From contig SHYY01000008.1 in the NCBI GenBank assembly GCA_009692555.1, forward strand, positions 1 through 64,000: 64,000 nt of DNA, in the 5' to 3' direction. Of this stretch, positions 756 to 63,765 are shown piece after piece (the stretch's first letter is position 1; each line of letters begins with the position of its first letter). Source of the stretch: Myxococcales bacterium. GTDB lineage: Bacteria; Myxococcota_A; Polyangia; Palsa-1104; SHYY01. The position numbers and the translations under genes were made by a program. The notes under the pieces were generated by a model, which saw nothing but the letters and a program-made list of their open reading frames with translations, did no database searches and was not told where the DNA came from.

Positions 756-2120
<1,365 letters not shown>

Positions 2121-4790: not shown

Positions 4791-7481
<2,691 letters not shown>

Positions 7482-7496
7482 TCGATCTAGGGGAGT

Positions 7497-7600
7497 GCGT
7501 GCCGCCCTCCCTCGACGGGCACCCCCCCCCACTCGATCCTGGGGGCAAGCCCCCACCCGTCGAGCCTCCCTTCCTGCTACGGCGGGACTGCCCGCCGGCC
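7497..7600. repeat. GC-rich intergenic multi-hairpin element, copy 1
   Basis: GCGTGCCGCCCTCCC...CTGCTACGGCGGGACTGCCCGCCGG; hairpins TGGGGGC-AA-GCCCCCA and GGCGGG-ACTG-CCCGCC; shares core blocks with 14495-14570. Confidence 0.5.
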
Positions 7601-7754
7601 GTGCCGTGCGCGGCTTTCAGACTCAGTCCCACGCTACCCACTTCGACCAAAACTAGCACCAGCCGCCCTGTCTCGACGATTGCAACCAGACTTGGCCGAA
7701 AAACAGCGAGACCCGAGTCTGACGCGCGGAACTAAAACAGGTAGAGTAGCGCGC

Positions 7755-8780
7755 ATGACAACCGAGCTTCGTCGCACGCGCATGGTGGGCCTCGGGGGCT
7801 TCGTGCCCGAGCGGGTGGTCAAGAACGACGACCTGAAGCAGTGGATGGACACCTCGGATCAGTGGATCCAGGAGCGCACCGGGATCCGCGAGCGGCGCTG
7901 GGTGGACTGGGACAAGAAGATCGGCTCGTCGGACCTGGCGGTGGAGGCGTCGAAGCGCGCGCTCAGCGACGCGGGGATGGTGCCGAAGGACATCCAGATG
8001 GTGATCTTCGCGACGCTGTCGCCCGATCACCTGTTCCCCGGCACGGGCGTGTTCCTGCAGCGAAAGCTCGGGATTCCCGTCGGTGCGGCGGTGCTCGATA
8101 TCCGCCAGCAGTGCACCGGCTTCATCTACGGGACCTCGATCGCCGATCAGTTCATCAAGACCGGGATGTACGACCGGATCCTGGTGATCGGCGCGGAGGT
8201 GCACTCGACCGGGCTCGATCTGTCGACGCGCGGGCGCGATGTCTCGGTGATCTTCGGCGACGGAGCAGGCGCGGCGATCTATGCCCCGGCGGTCGACGAC
8301 GTGAGCTACATCATCTCCAGCCACCTGCACGCCGACGGCAACTCGGCGGAAGATCTTTGGACCGAGTATCCATCGTCGAAGGAGATGCCGCAGCTCGATC
8401 CGGCCGAGGTGGCGGAGGGGAAGACGCGCCACTTTCCGCAGATGAAGGGGCGCCAGGTGTTCAAGCACGCGGTGCCGAGGATGGCGGAGTCGGTGTTCGA
8501 GGCGCTGGCGCGGAACGGGGTGCCGCTCGCCGATCTCAAGATGCTCATCCCGCATCAGGCAAATCTACGGATCAACGAGTACGTGCAGAAGCAGATCCTC
8601 GGGCTGCCCGACGACAGGGTCTACAACAACATCCAGCGCTACGGGAACACCACGGCGGCGTCGATTCCGCTGGCGCTCTACGATTGCCGGCGCGAGGGCA
8701 AGGTGCAAAAGGGCGATCTGGTGTGCCTCGCCGCGTTCGGCGCCGGCTTCACCTGGGGCTCGGTGCTGATGAAGCTGTAG
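7755..8780 (+). CDS. 3-oxoacyl-ACP synthase III (FabH-like ketoacyl synthase)
   Basis: MVGLGGFVPERVVKNDDL; DIRQQCTGFIYG active-site Cys; IPHQANLRINEYVQ; YGNTTAASIPLAL. Confidence 0.9.
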   Translation: MTTELRRTRMVGLGGFVPERVVKNDDLKQWMDTSDQWIQERTGIRERRWVDWDKKIGSSDLAVEASKRALSDAGMVPKDIQMVIFATLSPDHLFPGTGVFLQRKLGIPVGAAVLDIRQQCTGFIYGTSIADQFIKTGMYDRILVIGAEVHSTGLDLSTRGRDVSVIFGDGAGAAIYAPAVDDVSYIISSHLHADGNSAEDLWTEYPSSKEMPQLDPAEVAEGKTRHFPQMKGRQVFKHAVPRMAESVFEALARNGVPLADLKMLIPHQANLRINEYVQKQILGLPDDRVYNNIQRYGNTTAASIPLALYDCRREGKVQKGDLVCLAAFGAGFTWGSVLMKL

Positions 8781-8803
8781 CTTCCGCTACTGCTAGCGGA
8801 AGC
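8780..8803. terminator. Bidirectional hairpin between convergent genes
   Basis: GCTTCCGCTA-CTGC-TAGCGGAAGC, perfect 10-bp stem spanning both stop codons. Confidence 0.65.
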
Positions 8804-9803
8804 AGTCGGCGAACGAGATGAAGCGGCCGACGGAGGGGTAGTAGTAGGCCCACAGGAAGCACATCTCGTTGTCCTCGGCCGACTGCCCGAACATGTAGGT
8901 CTTCTGGCCGTTGTTCTGGTAGTGGCACTGCCAGCGCAGGCCCTCGCCGGCGGCGAAGGTTTGCAGATGGGCGTCGTCCCAGGTGACGAAGGGCGGGTTG
9001 TCGTAGGGCTGGCCCATGGTCAGGTTGGTGCCGGCGGCGGCGCTCGACGACTTGTCGATGGTCATCAGGGTGCCGCGCTTGTGCTGGTGGGTGGTGAGGC
9101 CGAACATCTTGATCCCCGGCGGCATCTTGAAGAAGGCCGGGGGCAGGGTGGTGGCGCCGGGGGGAACGCCCTTGCCGCCGAACATCTTGTCGAGCGGGCT
9201 CACCGAGCCGCAGAACATGATGTCGGCCTTCTCGTATGCGGCGGCCTTGCCGACGGTGAGGCGGATGTCGCCCTGGCCGACGATCGCCTTGGCGGTGGAG
9301 TTGATGTAGTGGGCCTCGATCTTCACCATGTCGCCGGCCTCGAAGTGGTAGGCGGCGCCGGAAGGGAGGGGCAGCGCGTTGTTGTCCTGGCTCTCGGCGA
9401 TGTAGATCGGGATGTCGCCGCCCGCGATGTCGAGGGGCTGGCACTCGTAGACCTCCTTCTTCTCGGTGGCCTCCTTCGACTTGAAGAAGATGAGGTGATG
9501 GGAGCCGGGGGCGAGGGTGGCGTCGAGGCGGATGACATCGATCGCCGTCGTGGTGGGGAGCTTGAAGCGGGTGCAGACGGTCTTTTCCTTGCCGGCGTCG
9601 AGCGGGATCGGGCCGATGCCAAGGGTGAGCACCTCGGTGACCGCCATTGCGAGATCGGAACCGGGAGGCACGGCGAGGTCGGAGCCTGGAAGTGGGGCGC
9701 CGTCACCGACAGAGACGCCGAGATCGGACGCGCCCGGGGGAACGCTGGCGCCGCCGCAGCTGGCCAGGAGAAGGGCGGCGAGGAGAGCAGGAAAGCGACG
9801 CAT
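8793..9803 (-). CDS. Lipoprotein resembling copper type II ascorbate-dependent monooxygenase (PHM-like) domain
   Basis: Lipobox MRRFPALLAALLLASC; LTTHQHKRGTLM and CHYQNNGQKTYMFGQSAEDNEMCFLWAYYYP resemble the C-terminal Cu-monooxygenase fold. Confidence 0.6.
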   Translation of the reverse strand: MRRFPALLAALLLASCGGASVPPGASDLGVSVGDGAPLPGSDLAVPPGSDLAMAVTEVLTLGIGPIPLDAGKEKTVCTRFKLPTTTAIDVIRLDATLAPGSHHLIFFKSKEATEKKEVYECQPLDIAGGDIPIYIAESQDNNALPLPSGAAYHFEAGDMVKIEAHYINSTAKAIVGQGDIRLTVGKAAAYEKADIMFCGSVSPLDKMFGGKGVPPGATTLPPAFFKMPPGIKMFGLTTHQHKRGTLMTIDKSSSAAAGTNLTMGQPYDNPPFVTWDDAHLQTFAAGEGLRWQCHYQNNGQKTYMFGQSAEDNEMCFLWAYYYPSVGRFISFADCFR

Positions 9804-9944
9804 GGAGCCTCCGAACGGTGGAAAAATACACGGTAGCTGTGGCGTGGCTCAGGCGCCAACGAATTCGGAGAATGCGTACTGTGCCTGATCGACCCGCCGC
9901 AGGCGGCACAGCAGCGTCCCCAGGGTCTTCGGGGACTCCGTCCC

Positions 9945-10355
9945 CTACGGCTCGTAGCGCTTGATCCCGAGGAGGAGGTCCATCGTGGCCTGGTCGGCGT
10001 CGGGGAATGGGTACTGCTCGAACTCGTCGGAGGTGACCCAGCGGAAGTCCTTCACGCGGCGGGCGCGCACCGGGCGGGTCGCGTCGAGGGTGGCGGCGTA
10101 GAGGCAGAGGGCGACCGCGTAGCCATCGTAGACGTGGTGCTTCTCGGTGAGCTTCTGGCCGATCACGGCCTCGGCGTCGATGCGCTCGCGGAGCTCGCGC
10201 TTGAGGGCGTCCTCGTCGCGCTCGCCCTCCTCGGCGCGGCCGCCGGGGAACTCCCAGAGCAGCGGCAGCACCGCCTGATCGCGCCTTTGCGTGATGAGGT
10301 ACCGGCCGTCCCGCTCGACCACCGCGGCGACCACCCGGATCATCTTTGCTGCCAT
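9945..10355 (-). CDS. MutT-like NUDIX hydrolase
   Basis: VVAAVVERDGRYLITQRR...LWEFPGGRAEEGERDEDALKRELRERI (near-canonical Nudix box). Confidence 0.85.
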   Translation of the reverse strand: MAAKMIRVVAAVVERDGRYLITQRRDQAVLPLLWEFPGGRAEEGERDEDALKRELRERIDAEAVIGQKLTEKHHVYDGYAVALCLYAATLDATRPVRARRVKDFRWVTSDEFEQYPFPDADQATMDLLLGIKRYEP

Positions 10356-10402
10356 GGCGCGGAGTCTAGGTTCGGCGGGCGCTCAAGTCAAAAACGAGGG
10401 CC

Positions 10403-11503
10403 TCACGATTTCTGGCTGGCGAAGTAGATCAGCGTGCCGATCACAACGGCGAGGAAGAGGAAGAAGAGGAGGAGCTTGAAGACGCTCCAGGGGGCCTTGC
10501 CGACCACCTCGCCGGTCTGGCCGTTGACGAGGAAGCGGTAGACCTTTTCTTGATAGCGGTAGGCGGCGATCCACACGGGGAGGAGGACGTGCTTGTAGGT
10601 GAGGGCGCTGTAGTCGTTGTGGACCTGGAGGCTGCGGTGGGTATCGCCGCCGACGTCGCGGCCGCAGCGGCTCTGCTGCTCGCTCTCGATGCGCGCCTGG
10701 GCCTTGGCCCAGCCGTCCTGGAGGCCGACGGCGTACTCCTCGGCGCTCCAGCCGGCGAGGTAGGCGGGGACGTAGGGCTTGAGCTGCTTCGTGTCGAAGG
10801 TCTTCAGGTGCTCGGCGAGGTTGTCGGGGAGGCCCTTCGAGGCGCACACGAGGAGGTCGTCGTAGACGTCCTTGCGCTGGCCCCAGGCGTTCGACCACTC
10901 GGTGCGCTGCACGCGGCGGGTTTTCGCGACGGTCTGGCCGTTCTCCTGGGTGGTGAACTCCTCCTCCTCGTAGTAGTGGCGACCGCGCTCGGCGCGCCAC
11001 TGGGAGTCGACGCGCGCGTCGTAGGTCCAGAAGGGGACGTAGACGCCGTTGACCTCCTGCACCTTGGCGAGGTGCTTGAGATCGCCCGGGCGGAACCAGA
11101 GCTTGCCGAGCCAGCGTGCGAAGGCGGCGTTGGCGGTCTTCTTGTCGACGGCGAAGGGGAGCAGCGACTCGGGGCGGATCGCGTTGGCGTTCTCCGCCTG
11201 ATCGAGCACCTTCGAGGAGCCGCAGAAGGCGCACTTCGTCGACGTGACACCGCCTTGGAAGGAGACGTTGGCGCCGCACTCCTGACAGCGATGGACGCGC
11301 ACCGCCGCGCCGAGGCCCTTCGGGGCCGACCCGAAGCCGGCGAAGAGATCGCGCTCGACCACCTGGTGGTGGCCGTCCTGCGGCACCTCGCGGACGAAGC
11401 CGCAGTGGCCGCACTTGAGCTTGCCGCTCGTGGCATCGAAGGCCAGCTCGGCGCCGCAGTTTTCGCAGCGGAACCTCTGGGCCTGCACTTCTCCGTTGGC
11501 CAT
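10403..11503 (-). CDS. Zinc-ribbon protein with C-terminal TM segment (YdjG-like)
   Basis: Internal ATG MANGEVQAQRFRCENCGAELAFDATSGKLKCGHCG; second CxxC pair RCQECGANVSF...KCAFCGSS; C-term FKLLLFFLFLAVVIGTLIYFA. Longer ORF to 12550 rejected. Confidence 0.7.
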   Translation of the reverse strand: MANGEVQAQRFRCENCGAELAFDATSGKLKCGHCGFVREVPQDGHHQVVERDLFAGFGSAPKGLGAAVRVHRCQECGANVSFQGGVTSTKCAFCGSSKVLDQAENANAIRPESLLPFAVDKKTANAAFARWLGKLWFRPGDLKHLAKVQEVNGVYVPFWTYDARVDSQWRAERGRHYYEEEEFTTQENGQTVAKTRRVQRTEWSNAWGQRKDVYDDLLVCASKGLPDNLAEHLKTFDTKQLKPYVPAYLAGWSAEEYAVGLQDGWAKAQARIESEQQSRCGRDVGGDTHRSLQVHNDYSALTYKHVLLPVWIAAYRYQEKVYRFLVNGQTGEVVGKAPWSVFKLLLFFLFLAVVIGTLIYFASQKS

Positions 11504-11623
11504 GGGCCTCTCCTTCGTGCGCGGGCTTGTGTCCGCTTGTGCCTTGGCGGGCGGGCGATTATTATTCCTGGCCTCACCTTGGCGCAAGGGTAAGCAACGG
11601 CGGACTAACGGAGGACACGGGCG

Positions 11624-12730
11624 ATGGGAATCTTCGATTTCGTGAAGCAGGGCGTGCGCGACATGTCGATCGCGCGTCCCGAGAGCGCCAAGGCGCTGCC
11701 GATCTACAAGCACCCCGATCAGACCATCCCGATGAAGGCGCAGCTGACGGTGATGGCCGATGAGATCGCGTTCTTCTACAAGGACGGGACGCTGGTCGGG
11801 CAGATCGGGCCGGGGCGCCACACCCTGGAGACCTCGAACATCCCGTTCCTCGACATCATCGTCGACAAGTTCACCGGCGGAAACGTCCTCAAGGCGGAGG
11901 TGTGGTTCGTCACCATGCGCGAGATCGCCGGGCTGAAGTTCGGCGGGCGGATCGGCGCGCAGGAGGACCCCAAGTCGGGGGTGCCGGTGGAGACGATGGT
12001 CCATGGGGACTACTCGATCCAGGTGAACGACGCGACCAAGTTCATCGCCTTCTTCGGCCTCCGGGCGATCGCCAGCGAGGACGAGTTCACGGGGTGGTTT
12101 CGCAACCAGGTGCTGAAGGTGATCCGCGACCGGATCGCCGAGCTGCTGGTGAAGAAGAAGTGGCCGCTGCTCGATGTCACCTCGGGGGCCTACACCGAGG
12201 AGATCGAGGAGGACGTGATCCTCGGTGTGAAGAAGCACCTCGCGTCGTACGGCGTCGATGTGGTGCGGCTCGGCAACTTCGAGATATCGATCGGCGAGGA
12301 GGATGGCAAGAACCTGAAGAAGCTCTACACCGACGCGGCCTACATCCGGATGTCGGGGGGCATGGCGGGCTACCAGCAGTTCGCGGCGGGGAAGGCGATG
12401 ATGGGCGCGGGCGAGGGGATGGCCAAGGGCGGCGGCGAGGGTGGCGGGGGCGGGATGCTGGCCGGGGCGGGGCTCGGGGTCGGGGTCGGGATGGCCAACA
12501 TGTTCAACCAGCAGCAGCATCCGCCGCCGCAGGCTCCGCAGGCTCCGCAAGCGCCTGCGGGCGCCGGGCAGGTGACGTGTGGGGCGTGCAACAAGCTGGT
12601 CGCCGCCGGGAAGTTCTGCGCCGAGTGCGGGCAGACGCTGGCGCCGGCGAAGGCGTTCTGCGCGAACTGCGGGCAGCAGATGGCCGCGGGCTCGAAGTTC
12701 TGCCCCGGCTGCGGGAGCAAGACGGCGTAG
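11624..12730 (+). CDS. SPFH-domain protein (YdjI/virion-core-like) with C-terminal double zinc ribbon
   Basis: MGIFDFVKQGVRDMSIARPE... SPFH-like core; C-term CGACNKLVAAGKFCAECG and CANCGQQMAAGSKFCPGCG. Confidence 0.75.
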   Translation: MGIFDFVKQGVRDMSIARPESAKALPIYKHPDQTIPMKAQLTVMADEIAFFYKDGTLVGQIGPGRHTLETSNIPFLDIIVDKFTGGNVLKAEVWFVTMREIAGLKFGGRIGAQEDPKSGVPVETMVHGDYSIQVNDATKFIAFFGLRAIASEDEFTGWFRNQVLKVIRDRIAELLVKKKWPLLDVTSGAYTEEIEEDVILGVKKHLASYGVDVVRLGNFEISIGEEDGKNLKKLYTDAAYIRMSGGMAGYQQFAAGKAMMGAGEGMAKGGGEGGGGGMLAGAGLGVGVGMANMFNQQQHPPPQAPQAPQAPAGAGQVTCGACNKLVAAGKFCAECGQTLAPAKAFCANCGQQMAAGSKFCPGCGSKTA

Positions 12731-12773
12731 CGGCGGTTCTCACCCGATCACAAATCACGACCAGGAGACATTC

Positions 12774-13202
12774 ATGGCGGTCAAGCGCATCTCGCCCGAG
12801 GAGGCCCACACGTTGATGGGCGACGGGTACACCTACCTCGATGTGCGATCGGTCCCGGAATACAACCAGGGGCATCCCGAGGGGGCGAACAACGCGCCGC
12901 TCCTGCACATGGGCGCCGGCGGGATGGCGCCGAACCCGGAGTTCGTCGCGGTGGTCCAGGCGAACTTCGCCAGCGATGCGAAGCTGGTCATCGGCTGCAA
13001 GATGGGCGGTCGGTCGCAGCAGGCGGCGATGCAGCTCGAGGCGGCGGGCTTCACGAACCTTCTCGAAATGCGCGGCGGCTGGAGCGGCCAGGCGGATGCG
13101 ATGGGGCGGATGGTCGACAAGGGGTGGTCGACCCTCGGCCTGCCGGCAGCGACGGCGGCGACCCCGGACGGGAGCTGGGACGAGCTGAAGGCGAAGAAGT
13201 AG
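12774..13202 (+). CDS. Rhodanese-like domain protein
   Basis: MAVKRISPEEAHTLMGDGYTYLDVRSVPEYNQGHPEGANN; active-site-type loop GCKMGGRS. Confidence 0.85.
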   Translation: MAVKRISPEEAHTLMGDGYTYLDVRSVPEYNQGHPEGANNAPLLHMGAGGMAPNPEFVAVVQANFASDAKLVIGCKMGGRSQQAAMQLEAAGFTNLLEMRGGWSGQADAMGRMVDKGWSTLGLPAATAATPDGSWDELKAKK

Positions 13203-13211
13203 CCCGGCGCG

Positions 13212-14450
13212 ATGGAGCCGATCACCCTGCGGTGCCGGTTCTCGCGGGAGCGCGATCACGACGCCGCACGCCGCAGCGCCGAGGCGATCTGCTCCGAGGT
13301 GGAGCGCCTGGGCGGGATGGTGAGCGGGGCGGGGCAGGTGGTGTGGGCAACGCTCCACCCGGCGCTGCCGCCGATCGCGGTGCAGGAGTCCGGGCGCGCG
13401 GTGGAGGCGCGGGTGCCTGCCTGGCCGGGCGGGCCGGGCTATCACGAGGCGGCGCTGGCGATGCTGCGGGCCGCCGCGGCGGAGGCCGGGGTCGACCTCA
13501 CCGTCGAGGATTCGACCGGATTCGCCGAGAGCGGTGATCGCGCGGCGCTGGAGACGGCCCACATCGCGGCGCTCCGGGCAGCGGCGGCGGAGGCGCTCGG
13601 GTTCCTCGATCGGGTCGGGGAGCGCGCGCACCTCCAGTTCGGGTTGCCGCTCCAGGGAGGCATCGACGCCTTGCGCATCGCCGGCGATCCGCCCGGGGTG
13701 TTCACGCCCCTCGGGCGCCGGGATCGGCGCTGGCTGGAAGGGCTCGTCGGCGGTGCGGTGCCGGCCGAGAGCTTCTTCCCCTGGTGGGGCGCCGCCCGCG
13801 ACGGGGAGGCGGAGCGCCGCCTGGCGCGCGCGCTCATCGAGAGCCAGCTCACCTGGCGGCCGGCGAAGACCGAACGGCAGAAGAAGCTCCGCTCGATCGC
13901 CCTGGATGGGCTGCGGCGCGGCGCGGAGGGGGCGCCGCCGGAGTACCTCGGGTTGCTGGCTCATCTCGAGGAGCTGGCGGCGGGCCGGGAGCTGACCGGG
14001 ATCCCGTCGCTCCGGATCGCCGATCGGCTGGCGCCACTGGCGCTGGGGTGGACCGCGGTGGTGCCGGGTCACTTCGAGGTGGGGCTGTCCGATGCGGCGG
14101 TTCCGCCCCAGGTGACGGTCGGTCATGTACATCTCGATGTCCATCTGCGGGTGGAGAGCATGGGTCAGGCGGCGCCCGAGGGCGTTCCCCTCGACGAGCG
14201 GATCGAGCATCTGTTCGCGCAGCCCCAGGCGGCGGGCGCCGAGGAGAGGCGGGAGCAGGAATTCGCCGGCTACGCCATCGAGCGCCCGCTCGCCGACGGG
14301 GGGACGATCCTGATCGGGTCGCTGGTGGGTGAGCTGAGCCATTTGATCGTACGGATTGTGATCGCTCCGGGCGGCGAGCCGCAGGCTGCGCGGCGGATCG
14401 TTGCGTCGATCCAGCCCGAGCGGGCGGCACCGCACTTCCACGCCATCTAG
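13212..14450 (+). CDS. Hypothetical protein, 412 aa
   Basis: Long ORF with clear start spacing after the rhodanese gene; no family recognised. Confidence 0.6.
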   Translation: MEPITLRCRFSRERDHDAARRSAEAICSEVERLGGMVSGAGQVVWATLHPALPPIAVQESGRAVEARVPAWPGGPGYHEAALAMLRAAAAEAGVDLTVEDSTGFAESGDRAALETAHIAALRAAAAEALGFLDRVGERAHLQFGLPLQGGIDALRIAGDPPGVFTPLGRRDRRWLEGLVGGAVPAESFFPWWGAARDGEAERRLARALIESQLTWRPAKTERQKKLRSIALDGLRRGAEGAPPEYLGLLAHLEELAAGRELTGIPSLRIADRLAPLALGWTAVVPGHFEVGLSDAAVPPQVTVGHVHLDVHLRVESMGQAAPEGVPLDERIEHLFAQPQAAGAEERREQEFAGYAIERPLADGGTILIGSLVGELSHLIVRIVIAPGGEPQAARRIVASIQPERAAPHFHAI

Positions 14451-52297: not shown

Positions 52298-54211
52298 ATG
52301 TGCGGGATCTTCGGCGCGATCGGCGACGCCACCGACGAGGCGCTCGCCGCCGGCTGTGCTGCATTGCAGCATCGCGGCCCGGACGCGCACGGCGTGTGGC
52401 GCTCCGGCCAGGACGGGCTCGCCCACACCCGCCTGAAGATCATCGACCTCTCCGAAGCGGCGGCCCAGCCGATGGCGGGCTGCGATCCCCAGGTGCGGGT
52501 CACCTTCAACGGCGAGATCTACAACCACCGCGATCTCCGCGCCTTGCTCGAGGCCAAGGGCCATCACTTCCGCTCGCGCTCCGACAGCGAGGCGATCATC
52601 CACGGCTACGAGGAGTGGGGCCCGGCGGTGATCGAGCGCCTCGATGGCATGTTTGCCCTCGGGATCTGGGACGCCGCCCGCCGCCGCCTGGTGCTGGCGC
52701 GCGACCGCACCGGCAAGAAGCCGCTCTTCTACACCCTCTCCCCCGATGGTCGCACCCTCCGCTTCGCCTCCGAGGTGAAGGCGCTCGTCGCCGCCGGCCA
52801 CCCCGACGCGCTCGATCCCGCCGCCCTCCCGATGTTCCTCTCGTGGGGCTACGTCCCCGCGCCGGCGACCATCCACAAGGGCGTCCACCAGCTTCCCCCC
52901 GCCTCGCGTCTGGTCCACGAGCCGGGCCGCCACGCCCCGCGCGTCGACACGTGGTGGCGCCCGACCTTCCTCGAACCCCCGCTCGCCATCCCCTACGATC
53001 AGGCGCGCGCCCGGGTGCGCGAGCTGGTGATTGCTGCAGTGCAGCGAAGGCTCGAATCCGATGTCCCGCTCGGCGCCTTCCTCTCGGGCGGGATCGACTC
53101 CACCATAGTGGTCGGCGTGATGGCGAAGCTGCTCGGACAGAAGGTGCGCACCTTCTCGATCGGCTTCCCGGGCGATCCCGCGTTCGACGAATCGCCCGCC
53201 GCCCGCGCCACCGCGCGCCTCTTTGGCACCGAGCACACCGAGTTCCACCTCGCCCCCTCCTCGGCTTCGCTGATCGAGAAGCTGGTCTGGTTGCACGACG
53301 GCCCGTTCGGCGACTCCTCCGCGATCCCCACCCACACCGTCTCAAAGCTCACCCGCCAGCACGTCACCGTGGCGCTCTCCGGCGACGGCGGCGACGAGCT
53401 GTTCGCCGGCTACCTCCGCTTCCTCGCCGCCGAGGTCGCCGAGCGCGTGCCCGCCCCGCTCCGCTCCGGCCTGGGCGCCGCGGCGCGTCTCTTCCCGGGC
53501 GGCCTGCCCTTCCACTCGCTCGGCGCGCGCGCCGGCCGCTTCCTCCAGGGCGTCGCCCTGCCGCTCGGCGACCGCATCTCGCGCTGGAACTCCTCCTTCG
53601 CCTTCGACCTCGAGCAGACGATCCGCCCCGAGCTCCAGCCGTCGCTCGATCTTGGCGGCCCGCTCGAGTGGCAGCGCAGCTTCTTCGACGGGCGCGGCAC
53701 CACGCTGGCGCGGATCCTCGATCACAACTTCCGCACCTACCTGGCGTTCGATCTCCAGACCAAGCTCGATCGCTGCTCCGCCGGCAACGCGCTCGAGGTG
53801 CGCGCCCCGCTGCTCGACACCGCGCTGGTGGAGTACGCCGGCCGCCTCCCCGACGGCTTCAAGCGCCGCGGCACCCGCACCAAGCACATCCTCCGCGACG
53901 CCTTCTCCGATCTCATCCCCGAGGCGATCGCCCGCCGCCCGAAGCGCGGCTTCGGCGTCCCGCTCGGCGCCTGGTTCAAGGGCGAGCTGGCCCCCTACCT
54001 CCAGGACACCCTCGGCCGCGGCGCCCACGCCACGATCGACAGCTTGCTGCAACGCAGCACGGTGGACGGGTTGATCGCCGATCACCTCGCCGGCCGCGCC
54101 GATCACAGCGCCAAGCTCTTCACCCTGCTCACGCTGGAGGTCTGGCTGCGCTCGCTGCGGCCGGCGGCGACCCGCCCGGATCGCCTCTTCGCCGTCGGTG
54201 CCGCGTCATGA
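52298..54211 (+). CDS. asnB: Asparagine synthase (glutamine-hydrolysing), polysaccharide-cluster type
   Basis: MCGIFGAIGDATDEALAAGCAALQHRGPDAHGVW; SGGIDSTIVVGVMAKLL; ALSGDGGDELFAGYLRF. Confidence 0.93.
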   Translation: MCGIFGAIGDATDEALAAGCAALQHRGPDAHGVWRSGQDGLAHTRLKIIDLSEAAAQPMAGCDPQVRVTFNGEIYNHRDLRALLEAKGHHFRSRSDSEAIIHGYEEWGPAVIERLDGMFALGIWDAARRRLVLARDRTGKKPLFYTLSPDGRTLRFASEVKALVAAGHPDALDPAALPMFLSWGYVPAPATIHKGVHQLPPASRLVHEPGRHAPRVDTWWRPTFLEPPLAIPYDQARARVRELVIAAVQRRLESDVPLGAFLSGGIDSTIVVGVMAKLLGQKVRTFSIGFPGDPAFDESPAARATARLFGTEHTEFHLAPSSASLIEKLVWLHDGPFGDSSAIPTHTVSKLTRQHVTVALSGDGGDELFAGYLRFLAAEVAERVPAPLRSGLGAAARLFPGGLPFHSLGARAGRFLQGVALPLGDRISRWNSSFAFDLEQTIRPELQPSLDLGGPLEWQRSFFDGRGTTLARILDHNFRTYLAFDLQTKLDRCSAGNALEVRAPLLDTALVEYAGRLPDGFKRRGTRTKHILRDAFSDLIPEAIARRPKRGFGVPLGAWFKGELAPYLQDTLGRGAHATIDSLLQRSTVDGLIADHLAGRADHSAKLFTLLTLEVWLRSLRPAATRPDRLFAVGAAS

Positions 54212-58008: not shown

Positions 58009-58026
58009 CAGGTGGAAGTGAGGTTG

Positions 58027-59814
58027 ATGGAACCGCTGCGCGACTACGGCTGGCACTTCGGGATCGCACTCGCCGCGTCCCTCGGCCTCACGGTCGCCGT
58101 CCGCACGCTGGCGCGGCGCTTCGGCTGGGTGGCGAAGCCGCGCCCCGACCGCTGGCACCAGAAGCCCACCGCACTCTTCGGCGGCGTCGGCATCTTCGGC
58201 GGCTTCCTCCTCGCGTACCTCGTGCGCCGTCCGGCCGGGCTGACCGGCGGCGGCCTGCTCACCGCGTGCGCGTCGGGGATGTTCCTCCTCGGTTTCATCG
58301 ACGATAAATTCCAGCTCAAGCCCTACGCCAAGCTGGTCGGCCAGATCGCCTTCGCCACGCTGTTCACCACCTTCGGCCTCCGTCTCCACTGGCTGCTCAA
58401 CCCGATCCTCGACCAGGGCCTCACCATCTTCTGGCTGGTCGGGATGACCAACGCGCTGAACCTCCTCGACAACATCGACGGCGCGGCGGGCGGCGTGGCG
58501 GCGATCGCCGGCGGCTTCCTGATCTACTTCTGCCACATGGCCGGGCAGGGCGACTCGGCGATGATCGCCGCCGCCTTCACCGGCGCGGTGCTCGGCTTCC
58601 TGGTGTTCAACTTCAACCCCGCGTCGATCTTCATGGGCGACTGCGGGTCGCTCTTCATCGGCTTCTTCCTCGGTGGCCTGTCGCTGGTGAACTTCGAGAT
58701 CGGCGCACGGCGGAACGTGATCGCGGTGCTGGCGATCCCGGTGCTGCTGCTCCTCCTCCCGATCCTCGACACGACGCTGGTGACGATCACCAGGCGCTAC
58801 CACGGGCGCCGCGTCTCCCAGGGCGGGCGCGATCACACCTCGCACCGCCTGGTGGCGCTCGGGATGTCGGAGCGCCGGGCGACCCTCACCTTGTGGGCGA
58901 TCTCGGCGATCTCCGGCGGCCTCGCGGTGGCGGTGAAGAACGTCTCGGCGATGATGGCGATCGGCCTCATGTCGGCGTTCGTCTTCGGGCTCCTGTTCCT
59001 GATGATCTTCCTCGGGCGGGTGAAGGTCTACCAGCAGGTCGCGAGCGAGGTGGAGGCGAACGGACGAACGCTCCTGCCGACGCTGGCGGACTTCAGCTAC
59101 AAGCGGCGCGTGTTCGAGACGCTGAACGATCTCGTCCTGATCATGCTGTGCTACTACGGCGCGTTCCTGCTCCGCTTCGACGAGAGCACGATCATGGAGC
59201 ACTGGCCGCAGTTCGTGCGCTCGCTGCCGCTGGTGATCGTCTCGCAGCTCTCGGTGTTCCTGGTCCTCGGGCTCTACCGCGGGGTGTGGCGCTACACCGG
59301 GATGGACGACCTGGCGGTGATCGTCCGCGCGGTGGCCGGCGCGGTGCTGCTCTCGACCGGCGTGCTCCTGGTGGTGTTCGGCGCGGAGCGCGTCCACCCG
59401 CGGGTGGTGGTGATCAACGCGCTCCTGCTGCTGCTCGGCGTCGGCGGCTCGCGCGTCTCGTTCCGCTTCCTCCGCTCGTGGCTGGGGCAAAAGCGCGCCG
59501 AGGGACGGCGGGTGATCATCTACGGTGCCGGCGACGGTGGCGAGCTGCTGGTGCGCGAGCTGCAAAACAACCTCGACCTCGGCCTCGTCCCGGTCGGCTT
59601 CGTCGACGACGATCCGCAGAAGGCCGGGCGGATGATCCACGGCGTGCGGGTGATGGGCTCCTCCGACGGGATCGACCGGATCCTCGCGTCGGTGCGCGCC
59701 CACGAGGTGGTGCTCTCGAGCAGCAAGATCGGCCCGGAGCGCTGGGAGCGGGTGGAGCGCGCCTGCACCGAGCTCGGGCTCGGGGCGCGCAGGATGCGGA
59801 TCGCGCTGGAGTAG
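58027..59814 (+). CDS. WecA/MraY-like sugar-1-phosphate transferase fused to FlaA1/CapD-like TM plus Rossmann domain
   Basis: N-term RPDRWHQKPTALFGGVGIFGGFL, NALNLLDNIDGAAGGVAAIAGG, NPASIFMGDCGSLFIGF, RDHTSHRLVALG; C-term YKRRVFETLNDLVLIMLCYYGAFLLRFD...VIIYGAGDGGELLVREL. Confidence 0.9.
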   Translation: MEPLRDYGWHFGIALAASLGLTVAVRTLARRFGWVAKPRPDRWHQKPTALFGGVGIFGGFLLAYLVRRPAGLTGGGLLTACASGMFLLGFIDDKFQLKPYAKLVGQIAFATLFTTFGLRLHWLLNPILDQGLTIFWLVGMTNALNLLDNIDGAAGGVAAIAGGFLIYFCHMAGQGDSAMIAAAFTGAVLGFLVFNFNPASIFMGDCGSLFIGFFLGGLSLVNFEIGARRNVIAVLAIPVLLLLLPILDTTLVTITRRYHGRRVSQGGRDHTSHRLVALGMSERRATLTLWAISAISGGLAVAVKNVSAMMAIGLMSAFVFGLLFLMIFLGRVKVYQQVASEVEANGRTLLPTLADFSYKRRVFETLNDLVLIMLCYYGAFLLRFDESTIMEHWPQFVRSLPLVIVSQLSVFLVLGLYRGVWRYTGMDDLAVIVRAVAGAVLLSTGVLLVVFGAERVHPRVVVINALLLLLGVGGSRVSFRFLRSWLGQKRAEGRRVIIYGAGDGGELLVRELQNNLDLGLVPVGFVDDDPQKAGRMIHGVRVMGSSDGIDRILASVRAHEVVLSSSKIGPERWERVERACTELGLGARRMRIALE

Positions 59815-59902: not shown

Positions 59903-61456
59903 ATGAAAAAATTAGCTTGTGCTGTTCTTGTGGCGGTGGTGGCGAGCGGCTGCGGTCCCGACGTTGAGCCCGAGGACATGGCGCCGCCGTCGCCCGATCT
60001 GCGGCGCGATGGCGCCGCCCCGAAGCCCGACCTCACCGACCCGACGCCCGCGGATCTCTCCATGAACGATCTGACCGAGAGCCCCGACCTCTCGGAGCTC
60101 CCCGACCTCCTCGGGATGGACCTCGCGATGTCGGACATTGCGGCCCCCGCCGACCTGTCGATGGCCGATCTCGCGACTCCCGACCTGTCGATGGCCGATC
60201 TCGCGACTCCCGACCTGTCGATAGCCGACCTCGCGAAGCCCGACCTGTCGATGGCCGACCTCGCCAAGCCCGACCTCGCGATGCCCGATCTCGCGATGCC
60301 CGATCTGGCCGCGGCGATGGACCTGAAGGGCGCCGACCTCGCGATGCCCGATCTCGCGAAGCCCCCGGATCTCGCGCCTCCGCCCGATCTCAAGATGCCT
60401 GCCTTCTCCGCCGCCGCGCAGTACAGCGTGGGCGGCAACTTCGTCCCCTACGACGTCGTGGCGAAGGACGTCAACAACGATGACAAGATCGACCTCGTCA
60501 CGTCGAACACCAAGGGCAACAACGTCAGCGTCCTTCGCGGCAACGGCGACGGCACCTTCAAGACCGCCCTCAACTTCGCAGCCGGCACCGCCCCGGCCAA
60601 CCTCCTCGTCGCCGACCTGAACGGCGACAACAAGCCGGACCTCGCGGTGGCCAACAGCGGCGTGGGTGGCGTCGGCACCGGGGTCAGCGTCCTGTTCGGC
60701 AACAACGACGGCACGTTCCAGGCGCCGAAGCTCTACCCGGCCGGCGCCACTCCGCGCGGCGTGGCGCTCGGCGACACCAACAACGACGGCAAGCTCGACC
60801 TGGCCGTCGGGAACCTCACCAGCAACAACGTCAGCATTCTGCTCGGCAACGGCGACGGAACCTACCAGGCGCCCGTGAACTACGTCACCGGGACGCTGCC
60901 GCGCCACGTCGCGCTCGCCGATCTCAGCAAGAACGGGCGGCCCGACATCATCACGCCGGACTTCACCGCCAACACCGTATCGGTGCTGGTCGACAACGGC
61001 CTGGGCGGCTTCAAGGCCGCGGTCGCCTATCCGGTCGATAACTTCCCCCTCTTCGTGGCGGTGGCGGACCTGAACGGCGACGGAAACCTCGACGTGGTCG
61101 CCACCAGCACCGGCGCCGGCATGGCCAACGGGAACATCAACGTGCTGCTCGGCAACGGCGATGGCACGCTCAAGGCCGCGGTGATGTACCCCGGCAGCGT
61201 CAAGCCGAACGCCGTCGCGATCGCCGACTTCAACGCTGACGGCAAGCTCGATCTCACGGTCTCGAACGGCGGCGACAAGACGATATCGATCCTGCTCGGC
61301 GACGGCAAGGGAGTGTTCGCGGCGCCGCAAAACTTCGCCGTCGCCGGCGCGGCCGGGGCGGTGACGGTCGGGCTGTTCAACGCCGACAACAGGCCCGACG
61401 TCGCGACCGCCAACGGCAGTGGCGACTCGGTCAGCGTGCTGCTCAATCAGTTTTGA
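59903..61456 (+). CDS. Lipoprotein with low-complexity (P/A)DL linker and FG-GAP/VCBS-type beta-propeller
   Basis: MKKLACAVLVAVVASGC; DLSMADLATPDLSMADL... repeats; GNGDGTF, NNDGTF, GDTNNDGKLDLAVGN, DLNGDGNLDVV. Confidence 0.85.
   Translation: MKKLACAVLVAVVASGCGPDVEPEDMAPPSPDLRRDGAAPKPDLTDPTPADLSMNDLTESPDLSELPDLLGMDLAMSDIAAPADLSMADLATPDLSMADLATPDLSIADLAKPDLSMADLAKPDLAMPDLAMPDLAAAMDLKGADLAMPDLAKPPDLAPPPDLKMPAFSAAAQYSVGGNFVPYDVVAKDVNNDDKIDLVTSNTKGNNVSVLRGNGDGTFKTALNFAAGTAPANLLVADLNGDNKPDLAVANSGVGGVGTGVSVLFGNNDGTFQAPKLYPAGATPRGVALGDTNNDGKLDLAVGNLTSNNVSILLGNGDGTYQAPVNYVTGTLPRHVALADLSKNGRPDIITPDFTANTVSVLVDNGLGGFKAAVAYPVDNFPLFVAVADLNGDGNLDVVATSTGAGMANGNINVLLGNGDGTLKAAVMYPGSVKPNAVAIADFNADGKLDLTVSNGGDKTISILLGDGKGVFAAPQNFAVAGAAGAVTVGLFNADNRPDVATANGSGDSVSVLLNQF
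60151..60300 (+). repeat. About 5 copies of a 30-bp coding minisatellite
   Basis: cgacctgtcgatggccgatctcgcgactcc at 60151, 60181, 60211, 60241 and a degenerate copy at 60271. Confidence 0.85.
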
Positions 61457-61569
61457 TCATGGGCGACCTCCTCCCACGGCTGCGCCAGACCTCCTCCTGA
61501 CTGGAGAAAATCGACCGCCTCGGGTGGGCGGCTGGCTTTTGCATTCGCTCGTTCGGTCTCAGAATCGGC

Positions 61570-62400
61570 GTGCGGGTGAACCGCCCGGAGCTGATCGATT
61601 CGATCCGGGCGGTGCTGCCGCCCGGGGCGCGGGAGATCGAGTCGCCGATCGTCGACCGGCTGTACTCGGTCGTCGGCGGTGGTGCCCCCCGGCCGGGCGT
61701 CCGCGCCTACCACCTCGTCTACGCCGACGCCCTCCGGTTGACGCGGACGCTCGACTTCGCGAACGTGCTGAACGTGCTCGACGGGGACGCCCGCCTGTTC
61801 GTGGCCTCGCTGGCGCGCCGCCGGATCTTCGTCCACGCCGGAGTGGTGGCCTGGAACGGCCAGGCGATCGTCATTCCCGGCAGCTCGCGCAGCGGCAAGT
61901 CCAGCCTGGTGGCGGCGCTGGTCCGCGCCGGTGCGACCTACTACTCCGACGAGTACGCGGTGTTCGATGAGCGTGGGCGGGTGCATCCCTACGCCCGGCC
62001 GCTCGGCCTCCGCACCGAGGGGAGCGATGTGGCCCACCGCCACCCGGTCGAGGAGCTGGGCGGCGTGGCGGGAAGCGCGGCGCTGCCGGTCGGTCTGGTG
62101 ATCGCCACCGGCTACCGCGCCGGGACGAGCTGGCGCCCGCGCCGCCTCACGGCCGGGCAGGCAACGCTCGCGCTGTTGGCCCACACCGTGCCGGCGCGCC
62201 GGGCGGCGGCGCGCGCTCTGGCGACGCTCGGGGAGGTCGCGATCGCGGCCACCGGGCTGCGCGGAGCGCGCGGTGAGGCTGGCGAAGCCGCTCAGGCGAT
62301 CCTCCGGCGGCTCGAAGCCAGAAATGACAGCGACATGAATGCCGACCGGTTGCTCGGCGACAGACACGATGATAGGGTCCGTGCCCCGGAGGTTCGTTGA
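61570..62400 (+). CDS. HPr kinase/phosphorylase-related kinase (HprK-like)
   Basis: RRRIFVHAGVVAWNGQAIVIPGSSRSGKSSLVAALVRAGATYYSDEYAVFDERGRVHPY (Walker A GSSRSGKS and downstream acidic motif). Confidence 0.8.
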   Translation: MRVNRPELIDSIRAVLPPGAREIESPIVDRLYSVVGGGAPRPGVRAYHLVYADALRLTRTLDFANVLNVLDGDARLFVASLARRRIFVHAGVVAWNGQAIVIPGSSRSGKSSLVAALVRAGATYYSDEYAVFDERGRVHPYARPLGLRTEGSDVAHRHPVEELGGVAGSAALPVGLVIATGYRAGTSWRPRRLTAGQATLALLAHTVPARRAAARALATLGEVAIAATGLRGARGEAGEAAQAILRRLEARNDSDMNADRLLGDRHDDRVRAPEVR

Positions 62401-62401
62401 C

Positions 62402-62887
62402 ATGTCCCGAAGCCGACTTCCCAAGAGCCGCAGCAGCGCCGAACTGGTGATCCGGGAGCTGCCCGACGAGCTGCTGGTCTACGATTCGACCCGGCACGAG
62501 GCCCACTGCTTGAACCGGGCGGCGATGCTGGTGTGGCGCCGCTGCGACGGCGCGACCACCGTCGACGAGATGGCGGCGGAGCTCGAGCGCGCCGGGCTGC
62601 CCCGGGAAGCGGCGGTGGTGGAGCTGGCGCTGGATGAGCTCGAGCGGGCGCACCTCGTGGAATTACGCAAGGCTGCCCCGACCGACCGGGCCGACCGGGT
62701 GCGACGATCCCGCCGCAACGTCCTCCGGCAGATCGGCCTGATCGCGGGCGCCGCGGTCGCGCTGCCGATCGTGCAGTCGATCGTTGCACCGTCGGTGGCG
62801 CAGGCTGCGAGCTGTCTTGGCCCGGGCCAGGTTTGCGGCGTGGACGGGGACTGCTGCTCCAACCTCTGCCTGGGCGTCTGCGTCTGA
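62402..62887 (+). CDS. PqqD-domain protein with Tat-like hydrophobic segment and C-terminal six-Cys knottin-like tail
   Basis: LVIRELPDELLVYDSTRHEAHCLNRAAMLVWRRCDGATTVDEMAAEL (PqqD/RRE); RRSRRNVLRQIGLIAGAAVALPIVQSIVAPSVAQAA; SCLGPGQVCGVDGDCCSNLCLGVCV. Confidence 0.85.
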   Translation: MSRSRLPKSRSSAELVIRELPDELLVYDSTRHEAHCLNRAAMLVWRRCDGATTVDEMAAELERAGLPREAAVVELALDELERAHLVELRKAAPTDRADRVRRSRRNVLRQIGLIAGAAVALPIVQSIVAPSVAQAASCLGPGQVCGVDGDCCSNLCLGVCV

Positions 62888-62889
62888 TT

Positions 62890-63765
62890 TCAGCCCGGAT
62901 CGCGGCCGAGCTTTCGCAGGACCCCTCGTCGTACCAACCGCCATAGCCCACGCCGCCGGAGCGCGCGGTCGTCGGGCGCGAGGGTTGCCAGCACCAGCCC
63001 GAGGAGGCCGCTCGGCTGCGACAGACGATCCGACCCACGGCGGGCGAGCCCTCGGTGCAGTCGAACGGCCATCGCGAAGGTGGGCCGAAGGAGGGGTGGC
63101 AGGCGCTTCTTCAGGTGGGCGAACGCCTCCGAGGCGTGCTCCTCGATCATCCAGGCGGTCGTGGTGTGCAACGCCGTCACGGCGGCGCAATCGCGTGCCC
63201 GGTCGAGCAGGGCGTCCAGCCGTGGCTGGAGACGGCAGAGGAGGCGTTCGAGGTCCGCCGGCTGGTGGGGATTCGCGTAGGTGAAGCCGTCTTTCACGAC
63301 GTTGGCGACCAGCAGCAGGAAGTGATCGAGGTCGTCGATGCGGGAGATCGCAAAGGGAAACGTCGTGCGATCGACCTCCGCGCGCGCGAGCACCTCCGCG
63401 ACGCTCAGGCGCAGCAGGTCGGGCCTCCCCATCTCGGCGTGAAGCTCGCAAAGGACGCGGCCAACGCCGAATTGAAGCTCGCCCATCTCGTCCGAGCCGG
63501 AGAGTACCCGCCAGCCGCGGGCGCGCACGAGGTCCCGAGCGCGGCCGAATTGGGCCCGAGATACGAGTAGATCGACGTCGACGTAGGGCCGGTCGCAGAC
63601 GTCATCGTAGAGCCAGCGCGACAGGACCACGCCTTTGACCGGGGCGAACGCGACGCCGGCACCGGTCAGCTCTGCGCTCACGGTCGCGAGGCTGCGCGCG
63701 GCCTCCAGGCTGAACACCCAGCGCCATTTTCGTGCGTCCGCGAGGCTGGGATCAACGGGCTTCAT
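62890..63765 (-). CDS. Nucleotidyltransferase-fold family protein (PF14907/NTP_transf_5-like)
   Basis: LTGAGVAFAPVKGVVLSRWLYDDVCDRPYVDVDLLVSRAQFGRARDLVRARGW...ELHAEMG. Confidence 0.75.
   Translation of the reverse strand: MKPVDPSLADARKWRWVFSLEAARSLATVSAELTGAGVAFAPVKGVVLSRWLYDDVCDRPYVDVDLLVSRAQFGRARDLVRARGWRVLSGSDEMGELQFGVGRVLCELHAEMGRPDLLRLSVAEVLARAEVDRTTFPFAISRIDDLDHFLLLVANVVKDGFTYANPHQPADLERLLCRLQPRLDALLDRARDCAAVTALHTTTAWMIEEHASEAFAHLKKRLPPLLRPTFAMAVRLHRGLARRGSDRLSQPSGLLGLVLATLAPDDRALRRRGLWRLVRRGVLRKLGRDPG

Follow-up and report, generated by a model that had tools for sequence, protein, structure and literature searches.

RiPP recognition elements (RREs; RiPP, ribosomally synthesized and post-translationally modified peptide) are docking domains for the leader of another peptide, and the locus described here raises the question of what such a domain does when it is encoded in one chain with an export signal and a cysteine-rich tail. 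The gene lies on contig SHYY01000008.1 of a Myxococcales bacterium (assembly GCA_009692555.1), in the stretch of 64,000 nucleotides that we analysed and refer to as the window. Our re-reading matched exactly the open reading frame and translation (62402-62887, 161 amino acids) given in an earlier note made from the letters alone. The protein consists of a PqqD/RRE domain, a signal of the twin-arginine (RR) translocation (Tat) type ending in an AxA site, and a tail with six cysteines (Table 1). The PqqD-RR layout was found in 23 proteins, including that of the window; its leader part is conserved and its tail variable, and most members lie beside genes for an HprK-like kinase and an NTP_transf_5 protein. 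We tentatively regard the window protein, at slightly less than an even chance in our judgement, as a self-recognising precursor, in which the RRE would act in cis and a short product, usually rich in cysteines, would receive its mark in the cytosol, leave through Tat, be cleaved behind AxA and then be oxidised outside the cell.

The N-terminus is a genuine RRE/PqqD fold, as the earlier note had read it. Pfam PqqD (PF05402) covers residues 26-68 above its cut-off (E=1.8e-5; 25.4 versus 23.4 bits), and an AlphaFold model built with ten family members consists of three strands (residues 15-19, 24-28 and 33-37) followed by three helices (39-46, 54-63 and 70-82), with a predicted local distance difference test score (pLDDT) of about 90 over residues 11-80. 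In a Foldseek search of the PDB with this model, the best folds were the lasso-peptide B1 RREs TbiB1 and TfuB1 (probability 1.00, TM 0.70-0.72 by B1 (target) length), together with the RRE domains of TruD and ThcOx; the probability was 0.84-1.00 over all of these and the best E was 8e-3. The structural check proposed in the note returned the PqqD fold. A profile search of solved structures matched the domain weakly to 5sxy, 6jx3 and 3g2b (E 0.002-0.03), and neither the window protein nor any of six relatives examined scored above the cut-off of a curated NCBIfam PqqD model. The domain, which is predicted to bind leader peptides, shares PF05402 and the beta3-alpha3 fold with PqqD and other discrete RREs. 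However, 71% of PF05402-only proteins are at most 110 amino acids long and fit discrete RREs (PMC12710340), whereas in the window protein a single chain holds the RRE, the export signal and the core.

The twin arginine, hydrophobic core and AxA site described in the note were also borne out. The RR pair is present in all aligned homologues without exception, and in an alignment of 11 sequences RR, S126, A129-P130, A133, A135 and S137 are all invariant. The window's RR motif has the form SRRxxLR, and the consensus common to the family and kept between phyla is (S/T)IVAPxxAxA followed, after the cut, by x(S/T). TatC is encoded in the host genome (E=1.3e-58), as are 11 DsbA-family regions over cut-off. 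Because the sole AxA site is AQA at residues 133-135, signal peptidase would release a 26-mer beginning with Ala136 instead of the 25-mer at 62810-62884 that had been proposed. The second position after the cut (+2) is Ser in 17 and Thr in 4 of the 23 members, and its entropy (1.15 bits) is lower than that of +1 (2.39) and +3 (2.82) in this within-family comparison, in which the cut site was set by eye in five divergent rows. The related loci were partly selected by a motif spanning roughly S126-A133. This motif does not include A135 and S137, and the members from Gemmatirosa and from genomes G595-G804 were found without it (L and G numbers denote our loci and genomes). A hydroxyl kept between two variable positions, even in a tail of only four residues (DSYA), looks like a modification site, for which it is the best candidate.

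The search for relatives covered related genomes, those of the class and of the phylum, and also GTDB contigs and plasmids. The 23 proteins come from Myxococcota metagenome-assembled genomes (MAGs), from the phylum to which MAGs labelled Armatimonadetes belong (G592, G593, G595, G597, G598, G617 and G804), from Gemmatirosa kalamazoonensis and from a Phycicoccus MAG; the PqqD-RR-Cys-rich architecture occurs among soil bacteria in three phyla or more. The Gemmatirosa copy is on plasmid 1 and was the only one obtained from plasmids with three queries, and no relative was found among viral contigs. The layout is rare: full-length matches occur in 7 of 318 genomes of the window's class, and 7 of 291 genomes of the second phylum have it. 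Two further proteins of the window's phylum (L047 and L048) carry other passengers.

Identity to the window protein is 32-57% in the PqqD part and 35-74% in the last 34 signal residues, versus 11-37% in the tail when the shared cysteines are left out. Tail type changes eight times on the tree of the PqqD-RR module, in which many forks are weak, versus a mean of 9.0 after shuffling (as low in 53 of 200 shuffles), and genome G804 contains five paralogues, each with a different Cys-rich tail. Tail type does not follow the module tree, and the tail evolves separately from the module. This pattern of conserved leader and variable tail is what would be expected if, as the note proposed, the recognition domain is itself the leader, but the tail is not always peptide-like (see below). 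The traits of a RiPP precursor, namely a conserved leader, a variable core and adjacent modification genes, are all present, and modification of the core is predicted.

The cysteine pattern of the window tail, C-x6-C-x5-CC-x3-C-x3-C (loops 6, 5, 0, 3, 3), was read correctly in the note, and its comparison with knottins stands in part. Similar loops recur in L020 (7, 5, 0, 4, 4), L057 (6, 5, 0, 3, 8) and L059 (6, 6, 0, 4, 4), and such loops occur in two phyla. Among the 18 tails with at least four cysteines, 12 have a C..C..CC..C arrangement, versus 4.8 expected when each tail is shuffled (maximum 11 in 2000). PqqD proteins with C-C-CC-C-C tails exist, as the note had suggested searching for, but such a tail is not universal: others have 8 or 10 cysteines, 4 cysteines, none (L056), almost no tail (L027 and L080) or a passenger of 269-303 amino acids (G595). 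Strict family-wide C6C5CC3C3C spacing, the loss of which the note had named as evidence against its reading, was accordingly rejected, while the looser framework persists. Because spacing and tail type vary in this way, the PqqD-RR module is not dedicated to knottins. The window tail shares six cysteines, the C-C-CC-C-C framework and matching short loops with conotoxins and atracotoxins, from which it differs in its bacterial origin, its Tat-type leader, the variable spacing in its family and a disulfide connectivity that is predicted only. Its matches to solved structures, omega-conotoxin TxVII (1f3k, E 0.17) and omega-atracotoxin (1hvw, E 1.5), are not significant, and those of the window and L057 tails to Pfam Conotoxin_I2 (E 0.0055 and 0.00029, respectively) are below the cut-off. 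The window product is probably knottin-like, resembling peptides of animals and plants, and a cystine knot in it, with 1-4, 2-5 and 3-6 disulfides, is putative. The idea that the tail was copied from a Cys repeat elsewhere in the genome was discarded, the sole tail-like match (G000:C229, E 2.3) being a long Cys-repeat protein in a different register.

Tat is a route for cofactor-loaded proteins, and CC doublets are frequent in the tails, both of which would suit a tail that acquires a metal or an Fe-S centre and is then exported as a folded metallopeptide. This is very unlikely in our view, because the number and spacing of the cysteines vary, no conserved His or Asp ligands are present, and a neighbouring gene in Gemmatirosa points to disulfides instead. 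Directly after the Cys-rich PqqD gene of that plasmid (L049) is a MauE gene (12551-13471, plus strand; PF07291, E 3.6e-16), in whose product a C-terminal CAHC thioredoxin-like part was seen by eye, which would fit the formation of disulfides in the tail after export. In the MauA/MauE/MauD system of methylamine dehydrogenase, a Tat-type leader likewise precedes a small multi-disulfide protein and MauE is encoded nearby. The Gemmatirosa member shows a comparable arrangement, but no methylamine dehydrogenase was recognised and MauE was seen at one locus only.

Further evidence comes from the gene cassette. The PqqD open reading frame begins 1 nt after the stop codon (62398-62400) of the HprK-like gene, and the NTP_transf_5 gene converges on it from 2 nt past the stop of the PqqD gene. 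An HprK-like gene is present in L018, L020-L022, L025-L027, L049 (Gemmatirosa), L073 and L074 (genomes G598 and G617 included), with a fragment recognised by eye at the contig edge of L080; L023 begins too close to a contig end for its kinase gene to be judged. NTP_transf_5 genes are present in L018-L023, L026, L027, L049 and L072-L074 (genomes G598, G617 and G804 included). The kinase family retains the motifs HAG, PGxSxxGK and SDE. The arrangement resembles the HPr-rel-A system of NCBIfam (TIGR04352 HprK_rel_A and TIGR04353 PqqD_rel_X), in which an HprK-like gene also lies beside a PqqD-family gene, and the window adds a PF14907 gene. It differs in that the PqqD protein of the window is fused to an RR signal and a tail, and in that its TIGR04353 match is below cut-off (21.5 versus 35 bits), as is that of the kinase (see below). 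Homology of the HprK-like gene starts at a CTG codon (61501), right after an in-frame TGA (the two codons span 61498-61503), and the first ATG, GTG or TTG start is at 61570; the CTG may be either a non-ATG start or the sign of an upstream sequencing error.

In the precursor interpretation, the PqqD-RR-tail gene would be the substrate gene of this three-gene cassette. Because substrate and PqqD/RRE domain form one covalent chain, recognition would take place in cis, or the kinase and transferase would dock on the domain. In the cytosol, the kinase may phosphorylate the Ser/Thr at +2 (Ser137 in the window), and the NTP_transf_5 protein may attach a sugar or nucleotide to the phosphate, by analogy with PsmK and PsmN acting on a lasso peptide. 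The RR signal would then send the C-terminus through Tat and signal peptidase would cut after AQA, with the PqqD part remaining inside. Once outside, the 26-residue tail would be oxidised to a peptide rich in disulfides and probably knottin-like, which would reside either on the cell surface or within the polysaccharide matrix.

Several findings weigh against this interpretation. The tail is left disordered by AlphaFold (pLDDT below 50), which modelled the N-terminal domain, and no knot is shown for that reason. The window segment scores 14.0 bits against the generic TAT model TIGR01409 (cut-off 16.7; relatives 16.2 and 15.6), and Tat signals do not usually have an N-region of ~100 residues. 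The HprK-like matches are under the TIGR04352 cut-off (window, 57.1 versus 200 bits), and the kinase-family profile matched nothing among solved structures at E<=0.01, including no solved HPr kinase. Neither cassette gene is near the PqqD gene in L024, L069, L075 and L076. The strongest objection comes from the shortest and longest tails. L027 (DSYA) and L080 (GITS) have four residues after AxA or its equivalent with a kinase gene adjoining, and the tail is therefore not always a peptide product. These near tail-less members, together with the PqqD model of HPr-rel-A (TIGR04353), which has 74 positions and no tail, suit a PqqD domain that is itself the working part, i.e. a peptide-binding chaperone with a C-terminal Tat-type membrane anchor, a separate unseen substrate and a dispensable ectodomain. 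We consider such a chaperone unlikely, though it is a serious contender: AxA, a proline at -6 and S/T at +2 are retained as at a processing site, and most tails are Cys-rich and diverge fast, as in the five paralogues of G804. In addition, no other short precursor open reading frame was recognised near the window gene, although no systematic search was made.

At the other extreme, G595 encodes two PqqD-RR proteins with passengers of ~270-300 amino acids, without kinase or NTP_transf_5 genes in the examined region. Passengers ranging from four residues to ~300 amino acids, and copies without either cassette gene (L069, L075, L076 and L077), suit a general export module with built-in Tat chaperoning or proofreading for small or large surface passengers and no peptide modification. 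This explanation appears rather more unlikely than an anchored chaperone, because kinase and NTP_transf_5 genes stand beside most members in several phyla, and a hydroxyl residue at +2 is needless for pure export. The two G595 genes lie close together in L077 (6919-8163 and 9506-10987, minus strand); the C-terminal halves of their products are near-identical, and PqqD is the only Pfam match.

The cassette also invites comparison with lasso-peptide clusters. In pseudomycoidin biosynthesis, PsmK acts as a kinase on the lasso peptide's C-terminal Ser and PsmN puts one or two hexoses on the phosphate (PMC9266682). Paeninodin and pseudomycoidin clusters share with the window cassette an HprK-type kinase, a nucleotidyltransferase and an RRE of B1-like fold, and the nearest folds of the PqqD domain are B1 RREs, as would be expected of a lasso or other known RiPP cluster in disguise. 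Such an identity is extremely improbable and was rejected for lasso peptides: the B2 protease (PF13471) is absent from the host genome, which is 80% complete, and the window cassette is therefore not a lasso cluster. The window's asparagine synthetase (52298-54211), with the N-terminal MCGIFG typical of ordinary AsnB, is ~8 kb off, and no separate precursor was recognised, the substrate being fused to the RRE. Furthermore, the candidate Ser lies at the start of the predicted mature peptide in the window, whereas the Ser of the lasso peptides is at the end.

If the precursor interpretation is true, joining an RRE in cis to an exported core that is rich in cysteines and changes quickly represents a different precursor logic, and the RRE-signal-core fusion would be a searchable hallmark for bacterial disulfide-rich mini-proteins. 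The family would also give HPr-rel-A-type HprK-like/NTP_transf_5 cassettes candidate substrates and a candidate residue. A broader proposal, which we hold as doubtful, is that of a new RiPP-like class with members in several phyla. In this class the RRE would be the substrate's own leader, an HprK-type kinase and an NTP_transf_5 enzyme would phosphorylate and possibly glycosylate the Ser/Thr at +2, and the Tat-exported, diversifying knottins would bind to the exopolysaccharide matrix. In the open-access subset of the literature that we searched, where absence is not proof of novelty, we found no paper on HPr-rel-A-type cassettes or an HprK-related kinase, none that links PqqD to a Tat signal in a precursor, and none that connects it with HPr kinase and exopolysaccharide. 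The parts are of known kinds, but to our knowledge the combination of an RRE, a Tat-type signal and a diversifying Cys-rich core, accompanied by this cassette, has not been described.

Table 1. Features of the PqqD-RR locus in the window
Feature	Position	Strand	Remarks
PqqD-RR-AxA-Cys-rich tail protein	62402..62887	+	161 amino acids; layout supported by translation, Pfam and homologue alignments
PqqD/RRE domain, residues ~10-88, beta3-alpha3	62429..62665	+	PF05402; AlphaFold; PDB fold matches TbiB1, TfuB1
Tat-like signal: SRRNVLRQ, hydrophobic core, SIVAPSVAQA, AxA	62708..62806	+	residues 103-135; RR at 62711-62716
Predicted exported tail ASCLGPGQVCGVDGDCCSNLCLGVCV, 26 residues, six Cys, knottin-like spacing	62807..62884	+	sequence, Cys loops
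Ser137, +2 after AxA, candidate modification site	62810..62812	+	S/T in 21/23 family members
HprK-like kinase gene	61501..62400	+	TIGR04352 E=1.5e-15, under cut-off; homologue adjoins PqqD gene in most relatives
NTP_transf_5 (PF14907) nucleotidyltransferase gene	62890..63765	-	PF14907 E=1.2e-20; convergent; most loci examined have a homologue next to or near the PqqD gene
FG-GAP repeat protein, lipoprotein-like N-terminus	59903..61456	+	PF13517

The wider neighbourhood was, like the cassette genes, the +2 hydroxyl motif and the Gemmatirosa MauE-thioredoxin gene, missed in the earlier note. The window, L020 and L072 have an exopolysaccharide-locus setting with Wzz/BY-kinase-like proteins and glycosyltransferases. 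The window gene at 58012-59814 (plus strand) encodes a protein in which a glycosyl transferase family 4 (WecA/MraY-like) part is joined to a CoA_binding_3 domain of the type found in polyprenyl glycosylphosphotransferases, and has a homologue at the matching place in L020 (2240-4027). In L072 of genome G804 (6928-11911, minus strand), a pair of Wzz/BY-kinase-like genes encloses an NTP_transf_5 gene and two PqqD-Cys genes that differ from each other. The FG-GAP protein of the window contains an extended series of near-pentapeptide repeats (PDLSMADLA...). In L020 and L021, FG-GAP genes likewise lie upstream of the kinase gene, and in L024 they are close to the PqqD gene. PRMT-like methyltransferases are encoded near the cassette in L025 (4148-5242) and L026 (9304-10458), both on the minus strand, and the L026 copy apparently ends in a PqqD-like part, as judged by eye. 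Finally, a weak PEP-CTERM protein (1138-1914, plus strand) is encoded between the kinase and PqqD genes of L022.
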